Assembly: GCF_036021035.1 (NCBI RefSeq)
Contig: NZ_CP107930.1
Location: forward strand, 2,418,001-2,482,000
Length of the DNA stretch: 64,000 nucleotides
Source of the DNA: Kineococcus sp. NBC_00420
GTDB taxonomy: Bacteria; Actinomycetota; Actinomycetes; Actinomycetales; Kineococcaceae
Reading direction: 5' to 3'
Part shown: positions 17,718-19,829 of the stretch, in pieces
Numbering within the stretch: the stretch's first letter is position 1
How the letters are laid out: the number at the start of each line of letters is the position of its first letter
The notes under the pieces: model-generated
Seen by the model: only the letters and a program-made list of their open reading frames with translations
Told to the model about the DNA's origin: nothing
Database searches by the model: none
Position numbers and translations under genes: made by a program

Positions 17718-18074
17718 ATGACGTCCGGGCCGCTCGCCGCCCGTTGGTTCCGCGTGATCGCGACCTTCGAGGCGATCTCGTGGACCGCGCTGCTCGTCGC
17801 GATGTTCCTGAAGTGGATCGTGAAGGCCCCGCACGAGGGTGGTGTCCCGGTGGTCGGGATGATCCACGGCGTGGGTTTCGTGATCTACCTGCTGTCCACG
17901 GTGTGGGCCGCTCGCCGGCTGGGGTGGGGTCTGCGGGTCACGCTCCTGGGGTTCGTCGCGGGGTTCCCGCCCTTCGGGACGATCGTCTTCGAACGCTGGC
18001 TCGTCCGGCACGGCCTGCTCACCACGGGATCCGCTCGAAGCTCCGACGCAGTCGGTTCCCCTTCGCGGGGTTGA
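17718..18074 (+). CDS. DUF3817 small integral membrane protein
   Basis: 118 residues with three predicted membrane helices. The DUF3817 signature is clear (FRVIATFEAISWTALL, FLKWI, GMIHGVGFVIYLL, LLGFVAGFPPFGTIVFERW). Function unknown. The start ATG at 17718 follows a strong AGGAGGA site. The last 56 bp overlap the 3' end of the convergent reverse transcriptase gene, so the final 18 or so residues (after about residue 100) are encoded on both strands. A shorter, ancestral end is possible. Confidence 0.85.
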   Translation: MTSGPLAARWFRVIATFEAISWTALLVAMFLKWIVKAPHEGGVPVVGMIHGVGFVIYLLSTVWAARRLGWGLRVTLLGFVAGFPPFGTIVFERWLVRHGLLTTGSARSSDAVGSPSRG

Positions 18075-19344
18075 CGAACTCGACCCGGCTGACGCGCCCC
18101 TCCAGGTGGGCGCGGAAGTCGGGGTGCGCGGCCCGGTTCTGCGACGCCGGGCCGTGCACGACGCAGTTGTGCAGGACGGCCTTCAACCGGTCGAACTCGT
18201 CGCGCGGGACGTTCGGGTGGTCGTTGACGACGAGCCCGGTCACCAGTTGCCGGGCGCCCCGGCCGCGGGTGCGGGTCTTCGCCGGGTTCAGGACGAAACC
18301 CTCGTCGGCGACGATGCGGCTCACCGAACGCGCCAACGTCGCCGGGTCGAGCCCGGTCGTGGAGGAGAACGTCAGGTCGTCGGCGTAGCGGGTGAACGTC
18401 GCCCCGACCGCGCGCGCCAACCCGTCCAACCGCCGGTCCACCGCGTGCGCGCAGAGGTTCGCCAACGCGGGCGAGGTCGGCGCCCCCTGCGGGAGGTGCG
18501 CTTCGGAGAGGTTGCGCCGCAATCGGAACCGCGCGTCAGCGGCCCCGCCGTCGGGCATCGTGCGCAGGACGGTCAACGGGGTCACGTGGGTCGTGAGTCC
18601 GGTGAGGACGTGGGCGACGGGTTCGGCGTAGCCCATCAGCCGGAACCTGCCGTAGACCCGCGACGCCGGGACGCAGGCGAAGAAACCCTCCAGGTCGAAC
18701 CGCACGACCGTGCGGGCCTGGACGTGGTCCCACGCCCCGGTCAGCGCGGACCGTCCGGGGACGAACCCGTGGGCGACGTCGTGGGCGGGCACCCGGTCGA
18801 GGACCTCGCGCAGGACCCGCCTCTGCAGGTGCTTCAGCCGGGGTTTCGGCGCCTCCAGCAGCCGCGGGACGCCGCGTTTCGCGGTCCACGCGGACCGGTA
18901 GTGGTGCAGCGCCCGGCCGGCGGTCCGGACCTGGTAGCGCCGCAGGTCCGCGAACCAGTCGAGGTGTTCCGGTTCGACCTCGAGGAACTCCGCGACGTCG
19001 AGGACGGTGTGCAGTTCGGGGACACCGAACCGGTTGCCGCGCATGCGGGTCGTCCCGACCGCCAGGTGCGCCATCCGCAGCGGGGCCCCGCGCCTCGCGG
19101 CGGCGCGCTTCGCGCTCCCGTACGCGGTGCTGCGCAGGATGCAGGCGTGGAGTTCCCGCGGCGCGTCGTGCGGCGGCCGGTGGAACTGCGCGAGGACCGC
19201 GGCGGCGACCTTCGCGACCCATCCCGCCCTCGGCGACCCGACGGCGGCCCGACCGCGGTGCGTGAGGCCCTCGGGGGTCCAGGGTCCGTCGAGGAACGCG
19301 GCCGCCAGGGCGACGACGACGGCATCGGCGGAACGGTCGGTCAT
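18019..19344 (-). CDS. Retron-type reverse transcriptase (myxobacterial Mx162-like)
   Basis: 441 residues from ATG 19344. An N-terminal extension (1 to about 150, including WTPEGL and a FADLRRYQ segment) precedes a compact RT domain. Landmarks: PKPRLKHLQRRVL (167-179), HGFVPGRS (192-199), RFDLEGFF (215-222), LPQGAPTSP (284-292), the catalytic YADD (320-323), and RQLVTGLVVN (365-374) with the VTG motif of retron RTs. A PAKG segment (426-429) near the end also occurs in Mx162 RT, from memory of that sequence. The length fits Mx65/Mx162 enzymes. It should copy the adjacent structured RNA (19351-19529) into branched msDNA. No ribosome site precedes the ATG, which lies 6 bases after that RNA. No group II intron maturase domain is present. 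Confidence 0.93.
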   Translation of the reverse strand: MTDRSADAVVVALAAAFLDGPWTPEGLTHRGRAAVGSPRAGWVAKVAAAVLAQFHRPPHDAPRELHACILRSTAYGSAKRAAARRGAPLRMAHLAVGTTRMRGNRFGVPELHTVLDVAEFLEVEPEHLDWFADLRRYQVRTAGRALHHYRSAWTAKRGVPRLLEAPKPRLKHLQRRVLREVLDRVPAHDVAHGFVPGRSALTGAWDHVQARTVVRFDLEGFFACVPASRVYGRFRLMGYAEPVAHVLTGLTTHVTPLTVLRTMPDGGAADARFRLRRNLSEAHLPQGAPTSPALANLCAHAVDRRLDGLARAVGATFTRYADDLTFSSTTGLDPATLARSVSRIVADEGFVLNPAKTRTRGRGARQLVTGLVVNDHPNVPRDEFDRLKAVLHNCVVHGPASQNRAAHPDFRAHLEGRVSRVEFVNPAKGNRLRRSFERIPW

Positions 19345-19350
19345 GCGTGC

Positions 19351-19529
19351 GCGCGGTGGTGCCGGGCGACCGGTCCTGTGCTGCGGGGACGAGGGCGCGC
19401 GGAGCGCGCTGACGTCCCTGCGACGTCGTGCCGAACCTCTCGTGCTGTCCCCGGGGTGACCCCGGAGCTGCTCGACCGGCGTCGGTGCACCGACGCTCGA
19501 CGAGCCCTCTCGCCCCGGCACCACCGCAC
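19351..19529 (-). ncRNA. Predicted retron msr-msd RNA
   Basis: On the minus strand the RNA would begin with repeat a1 (GCGGTGGTGCCGGG, 19527 to 19514) and end with its exact complement a2 (19366 to 19353). The arms can extend outward by a wobble and a G-C pair and inward by three pairs after one bulge. Inside are a perfect 18-bp palindrome (19479-19496), a CCGGGG/CCCCGG hairpin (19451-19465), a GACGTC hairpin (19411-19427), a GCGCGC hairpin (19395-19409), and a long-range pairing of 19448-19452 with 19385-19389 plus 19439-19442 with 19390-19393. This order (a1, msr hairpins, a longer msd stem, a2, RT gene) is that of retrons. Ends are approximate and the branching G is not assigned. Confidence 0.75.
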
Positions 19530-19536
19530 CCGGACA

Positions 19537-19565
19537 CGATCACACACGGCCGGGCGTCCTGTCAG
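19537..19565 (-). promoter_or_regulatory. Possible promoter of the retron RNA
   Basis: CTGACA (19565 to 19560) is a good -35 box and stands 17 bp from a weak -10 box TGATCG (19542 to 19537). The start of transcription would fall near 19530, the outer edge of a1. The -10 box is poor, so this is tentative. Confidence 0.35.
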
Positions 19566-19723
19566 TCCCTCGGGTCCCGCCCCCGGTCGGCGTCGCGGTG
19601 GCCGTCCCGCACGCCGGCGCGAACGACCCGGTAGACGAGGTAGACCACCACCGCCAGCACGATCAGCCCCAGGAGCGGGAAGGCGATGAGGACGGCCGGG
19701 TGGTCGACCAGGTTGCGGAACAC
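19562..19723 (-). CDS. Small single-span membrane protein next to the retron
   Basis: 53 residues from GTG 19723, chosen for the GGAGG site 5 bases upstream. One strong membrane helix (HPAVLIAFPLLGLIVLAVVVYLVYRVV, in part) is followed by a charged tail of Arg and Asp. Family unknown. It ends 31 bp before the predicted retron RNA on the same strand, so it could share its transcript. Some retrons encode membrane effectors, so it is a candidate partner, but it could equally be an unrelated small protein. Confidence 0.6.
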   Translation of the reverse strand: MFRNLVDHPAVLIAFPLLGLIVLAVVVYLVYRVVRAGVRDGHRDADRGRDPRD

Positions 19724-19829
19724 GTGCACCTCCGGGGTGGGCAAGATCACCGACCCTGCCACGGATCGGTGCGGACCGGAAGGCACCCTCGGGAGGGCCG
19801 TCCCGCGGGGCCGAGGGCAGGATGATCCC

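Follow-up and report, generated by a model that had tools for sequence, protein, structure and literature searches.

Retrons related to the locus

Retrons are bacterial gene pairs that copy a small folded RNA into single-stranded DNA, and they are usually described as having three parts, a reverse transcriptase (RT), the RNA and an effector. Retron-Eco1 (Ec86) follows the same a1-msr-msd-a2 logic as the locus described here, has a separate effector gene and is not known to carry an N-terminal RT extension of the kind found at this locus; in Mx162 the RNA lies upstream of the RT, as it also does here. Putative retrons had been found in Actinobacteria by surveys, according to one report (PMC6868368), and PADLOC has covariance models for msr-msd RNAs (PMC9252829). 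We analysed a 64,000-nucleotide stretch of the genome of Kineococcus sp. NBC_00420 (hereafter the window), in which an earlier reading of the sequence alone had proposed a retron of the Mx162 type at 18019..19723.

The RT group to which the locus belongs is represented in PADLOC-DB, and the kind is thus already known. Our literature search, outside of which the 2020 retron classification lay, found no description of this retron group; given that classification and the surveys of Actinobacteria, an earlier description is quite possible. With this reservation, what appears to be new is an RNA class with a conserved hairpin and promoter box, the lack of a visible partner gene across many lineages, and an inverted RNA in Rathayibacter. 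A group in which no partner gene is seen makes it testable whether a retron works without one, and actinobacterial msDNA can now be sought with the borders, probable start site and predicted priming base that the RNA model supplies. Such retrons may also be of interest as compact DNA producers for high-G+C hosts.

The reverse transcriptase and its N-terminal extension

The RT gene of the window and its motifs are as follows.

18019..19344, minus strand: retron RT of 441 aa, with its ATG at 19344 and its stop codon at 18019 (RVT_1 1.1e-18)
19030..19344, minus strand: N-terminal RT extension of about 105 aa with no known domain (alignment of 32 chosen members)
18724-18738, minus strand: GAWDH at the NAxxH position, region X (RT motif)
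18469-18489, minus strand: QGAPTSP, within LPQGAPTSP (RT motif)
18376-18387, minus strand: YADD (RT catalytic motif)
18235-18243, minus strand: VTG, region Y (RT motif)

The open reading frame and its motifs bear out the 441-residue RT with YADD, LPQGAPTSP and VTG that had been read from the sequence. Catalytic residues D322 and D323 are invariant in all 46 aligned sequences, the window's included. Region X reads GAWDH and lacks the N of NAxxH, while A204 is nearly invariant and H207 invariant in the same 46 sequences. NAxxH is present in 14 of 16 validated retrons, and Ec48 and Mx65, both validated, are also substituted at the N (PMC6868368). The RT is the sole RVT_1 match in the 5.43-Mb genome, and the 3' end of its gene overlaps a convergent DUF3817 frame (about 17718-18074, plus strand).

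The best-scoring RT models were RT_other (3.5e-166, 552 bits) and RT_outgroup (2.5e-157, 522 bits) of PADLOC-DB (PDLC02949, PDLC03740), which cover nearly the whole RT; all 14 members of an alignment of relatives match both, and these are RT models only, with no effector or function named in their output. NCBIfam retron models score 150-160 bits on the RT and none reaches its curated cut-off (235-600), and the NCBIfam non-retron models score lower still (group II 46.9, Drt2 30.2, Drt3a 19.7 bits); the group II model, group_II_RT_mat, has a cut-off of 300 bits, which argues against membership in that group. A search of solved structures matched 16 sequences, with retron RTs on top and Ec86 first, the nearest by sequence being 7v9u, 7v9x and 8qbk (E about 1e-31).

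The possibility that the N-terminal extension is a known domain was rejected, as the matches were weak and scattered. Pfam gave no match to the window's own extension and matches in five families to the extensions of the 32 members (best E 0.0041), and solved structures gave seven weak matches, the best of which, to a designed repeat protein, spans 37 positions (E 3.8e-4).

Relationship to the Mx162 retrons

In a midpoint-rooted FastTree tree of 64 RT cores the window RT falls in a clade of 46 tips, with a support of 0.99 when the distant tip o_L024 is counted in and 0.82 without it. Four RTs (L158, L160, L162 and L171), which we take to be Mx162-like because their N-termini resemble that of Mx162, form a separate clade with a support of 1.0. 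Two of these, L160 and L158, score 514 and 497 bits with the PADLOC model RT_XIII against 292 and 300 bits with RT_other, whereas the window RT scores 302 bits with RT_XIII against its 552 with RT_other. RT_XIII leads for five scanned RTs (L160 and L158 among them) and for L148, and RT_other for the window, L142, L145 and L147. With a separate clade and a different PADLOC model, the assignment to the Mx162 type is not supported at the family level. The phylogeny, which had been proposed as a check, separates the window RT from the Mx162-like RTs and also from four RTs that are group II-like by eye. We regard the window retron as a member of a group that is sister to the classic Mx162 retrons of myxobacteria.

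Over the matched part the window RT is 40-45% identical to the RTs of the four Mx162-like loci, and both kinds carry an N-terminal extension. The suggestion that the window's extension is like those of myxobacterial retron RTs was not upheld (hhalign probability 0.1, with only four sequences on the Mx162 side). The loci differ in their RNAs: the window's RNA model finds nothing at L158 and L171, the two Mx162-like loci searched, the predicted priming G stands in the context GAGA in the window and CAGC in Mx162, and the DNA product of about 70-77 nt predicted for the window compares with 162 nt for Mx162 (values for Mx162 from PMC6868368). Four myxobacterial RTs (L148, which fits RT_XIII, L149, L151 and L152) have an N-terminal part that looks by eye like HEAT/ARM repeats, which suggests different extensions on related cores.

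Anatomy of the msr-msd RNA

The RNA lies upstream of the RT, both on the minus strand, and its parts are the following.

19351..19529, minus strand: msr-msd non-coding RNA (138 bits and E 7.3e-20 with the covariance model, whose training set includes the window)
19510..19529, minus strand: a1, 5' arm of the closing helix (inverted repeat, covariation)
19509, minus strand: predicted priming base, a guanosine of CGAG that immediately follows a1
19470..19507, minus strand: msr hairpin 1, of variable length (fold and alignment)
19449..19467, minus strand: msr hairpin 2, of the pattern CCGGGG-nnn-CCCCGG and almost invariant within the clade
19370..19446, minus strand: predicted msDNA template, 19370 copied first, 3' end assumed near 19440-19446 (from the a1/a2 geometry)
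19383..19421, minus strand: msd hairpin of two helices with an internal A/C mismatch and a GCGC-UCC-GCGC tip
19351..19369, minus strand: a2, 3' arm of the closing helix, ending 6 nt before the RT start codon
19536..19541, minus strand: -10-like element GATCGT

The whole feature thus spans 18019-19529. The lower end of the span first proposed stands, while its upper end at 19723 was too far because it takes in a small open reading frame (19562-19726) that is not part of the retron. The perfect 14-bp inverted repeat reported 5' of the RT is present at exactly 19514-19527 / 19353-19366, and together with CGA/UCG and flanking pairs it makes a 19-pair helix (19510-19529 / 19351-19369). CGAG is invariant in 10 of 10 aligned RNAs, which puts a conserved G at the inner end of a1; G19509 is predicted to be the priming base by the retron rule given in PMC6868368. 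Apart from its outer pair and loop, msr hairpin 2 is invariant in the same ten RNAs; its exact pattern occurs within 300 nt of the RT match at 66 of 77 named loci, and 99.4% of its cells are paired over 88 model matches. The two helices of the msd hairpin show two-sided changes at 5 of 13 pairs in the ten sequences and at 12 of 13 in the 88 matches. The RNA folds with a z of -5.93, which none of 200 shuffles equalled, and the predicted cDNA of 71 or 77 nt folds mainly into one long hairpin. When the covariance model was run against the window's own genome, this RNA was the single match at E <= 1 (150 candidates scored). Searched against Rfam, the window has no hit that reaches a gathering score, and 19250-19650 has none even at E <= 1.

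It is highly probable that the locus is a complete two-part retron of RNA and RT, probably active in msDNA synthesis. The RT would bind the msr, for which the CCGGGG-CCCCGG hairpin is the best candidate handle, and the 2'-OH of G19509 would prime synthesis; the msd would then be copied from 19370 to about 19440-19446. The expected product is a DNA of about 70-77 nt that is joined to the RNA by a branch and contains a single hairpin with a mismatch.

Of 85 distinct sequences, 76 carry a TANNNT box that begins 22 to 10 nt upstream of a1 (shuffles: mean 5.3, maximum 14), so transcription of these RNAs most probably begins close to a1. Nine of the 85 lack an exact box, the window among them; its -10-like element stands at -12, where most relatives have TANNNT, with the first T missing. 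A sigma-70 and terminator scan found nothing.

Covariation in the RNA

The 14-bp repeat alone proves little, since the 64-kb window holds five perfect 14-bp inverted repeats with arms 60-300 nt apart (100 simulated first-order sequences: mean 0.96, maximum 6). The upstream stretches of six congeners, the window included, align across the RNA save for the hairpin of variable length. The training alignment of ten sequences comprises these six, two from the Kineosporia genus of locus L061 and two from another genus. In it 95.6% of cells are paired and 16 of 46 pairs are changed on both sides, and none of 500 shuffles reaches either value; the number of pair types is reached by 23 of 500 shuffles. 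When the pairing partners are slid, pairing falls to 36-49%. This alignment was not fitted to the model, yet the structure was derived from it. Among 88 aligned matches, two weak rows included, 94.1% of cells are paired with two-sided change in 40 of 46 pairs, which none of 500 shuffles reaches; this alignment was fitted to the model, and its test therefore leans towards the structure. The covariance comparison that had been proposed as a check thus finds the a1/a2 pairing kept in homologues in both alignments, and covariation and model matches in relatives strongly support the suggested order a1, msr, msd, a2. We regard the covariation as decisive for a real RNA.

Spread of the RNA-RT pair

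Relatives were obtained by an alignment-profile scan of genome contigs, which confirmed at least 564, of which 80 were kept; a single-protein query scan of genome contigs confirmed no relative. The RNA model was run on 95 sources. These were the window, five further relatives (L012, L020-L023), 12 Corallococcus-family loci and, from the 80 named relatives, the 77 that come with upstream DNA (all but L062, L063 and L134). It matched next to the RT in all 86 clade sources searched, with E <= 0.0053, a set made up of the window, the five, the 77 and L145-L147. Of these, 83 are independent, the window and L061 being in the training set and L023/L097 being one locus. None of nine other retron loci (L148-L153, L155, L158, L171) gave a match at E <= 1; eight of them are in the tree, outside the clade, and L149 is absent from it. 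The remaining matches in the 1.35 Mb searched were two weak ones (E 0.59 and 0.92). On this pattern of matches we conclude that the RNA has co-evolved with the RT over many genera. By record titles, from which the taxa were taken and many of which denote MAGs, the pair is spread over many genera of actinobacteria, is found in Proteobacteria including myxobacteria, and is represented in further phyla by single MAGs.

At L022 the RNA match overlaps the RT match by coordinates, and in three matches (L085, L091 and L117) the RNA is on the strand opposite to the RT. In two Rathayibacter loci (L085 7785-7948, L091 7783-7946) the RNA stands head to head with the RT, and in L085 the sequence itself reads as a clearly inverted copy of the RNA. 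Between RNA and RT lies a palindrome, CCCCAGCCTAGGCTGGGG in L085 and shorter in L091, which could hold divergent promoters. The third match (L117 7742-7916, a Solirubrobacterales MAG) is a weak one on the minus strand (46.5 bits) and is perhaps a third inverted RNA.

Neighbouring genes and the question of an effector

A search of the 5-kb surroundings at 89 loci with a rough gene caller revealed no partner gene. Twelve families within 5 kb at these loci are common to at least three genera, and the largest, in nine genera, has mixed strands and sides. Three families keep side and strand, each of them confined to Arthrobacter, genus g32 and contig L090; as the tree joins Arthrobacter L088 and g32 as sisters, these look like shared chromosomal context. 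At 41 of the 89 loci the next gene downstream runs in the same direction as the RT, and in 25 it starts at most 100 bp away. Three of the 25 are spurious (a spurious frame in the window, pieces of broken RTs at L080 and L140), and the others look unrelated, except for repeats within Curtobacterium, when their first 40 residues are compared. Neither the fused effector domain nor the effector gene of a tripartite retron was found: the RT extension has no known domain, and no neighbour within 5 kb recurs in a constant place. The remark in the sequence-only reading that no accessory protein is fused or obvious is thereby supported and extended to 89 loci and to empty sites of congeners.

A full-length RT is present in 6 of 11 congener genomes, the window's own included, the other five RTs being 59-72% identical to it; the seventh match is weak and covers only a part. 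The RT immediately precedes DUF3817 in each of the six, and NYN lies no more than about 4 kb away on its far side; in four of them LigB stands between RT and NYN. Four congeners without the RT have no match to the RNA model either, and in them LigB (two) or NYN (two) adjoins DUF3817. Among nine congeners besides the window, five have both RNA and RT and four have neither (G003, a fifth RT-less genome, is on a short contig and outside this count). DUF3817 and NYN were considered as partners and rejected, as they are present at the empty site in all four of these congeners (LigB in two of the four). The frame at 19562-19726 was likewise rejected. It is a small ORF for a single-pass membrane protein, lies upstream of the RNA and has relatives in three congeners at other places; matches occur in 4 of 11 congeners, its own included, those in G002 and G004 lying on other contigs than the RT and G006 having no RT.

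As no partner gene was found, the effector step would lie in the RT itself, be provided in trans, or be absent; in cis, the 105-aa N-terminal extension would be the only effector candidate. Our leading guess for function, offered tentatively, is anti-phage sensing by the RNA-RT pair alone. That there is a broad class of partner-free retrons in which the RT, via its own extension, is both sensor and effector, with a class-wide RNA that may even be divergently transcribed as in Rathayibacter, seems to us doubtful.

Within the retron reading, an effector encoded elsewhere in the genome, or specific to the host, is somewhat unlikely; it would agree with a statement that retrons typically comprise a toxic effector (PMC12548924), but no family recurs clade-wide in constant position and strand within 5 kb, and the flanking DUF3817 and NYN persist without the retron. 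It is rather unlikely, too, that the retron has been domesticated for a host role that has nothing to do with phages and is kept by descent. Its site, as marked by DUF3817 and NYN, is the same in all six RT-bearing congeners, and vertical inheritance is described as likely for Mx162 and Sa163 (PMC6868368); against this, the RT is cleanly absent from that site in four of the 11 congeners, and near full-length copies occur in only 11 of 198 genomes of the order. It is very improbable that the RNA is instead a template or guide for another kind of RT, as in a class 2 DRT, with a product other than 2'-5' branched msDNA. GAxxH in place of NAxxH, the lack of an effector gene, the PADLOC labels 'other' and 'outgroup' and the sub-threshold NCBIfam retron scores would fit such an RT, but PADLOC retron models lead, the NCBIfam retron scores exceed those for group II, Drt2 and Drt3a, VTG and QGAPTSP are present, and the a1/a2 helix, whose inner end carries an invariant G, is built as in a retron. 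Hairpins arisen by chance in DNA of ~75% G+C next to an orphan RT can practically be dismissed, for even though 14-bp inverted repeats are not rare in the window, the pairs covary and the model matches beside the RT in every clade source.

Further loci

At two loci with a broken RT frame the RNA still matches the model: Kineosporia rhizophila L080 (8001-9299) has an in-frame stop before the catalytic motifs and an RNA of 130.9 bits, and in Paraburkholderia L140 (near 8001) the frame stops early and the RNA scores 69.7 bits. These frames reflect decay or sequencing error. The RT of an Acidobacteria MAG (L132) branches beside an Arthrobacter RT, which makes the label doubtful; the contig is perhaps mis-binned, or the transfer recent. 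A Planctomycetales MAG (L135) is the sole representative of its phylum. Contig L090, labelled Vibrio cholerae 35D, carries an Arthrobacter-like retron whose neighbours cluster with those of Arthrobacter and g32, and is probably assembly contamination. Finally, three genomes of Corallococcus and its family (G583, G607 and G619) each hold a full-length relative of the RT together with at least one further retron-like RT, and these further RTs match only from about residue 101.
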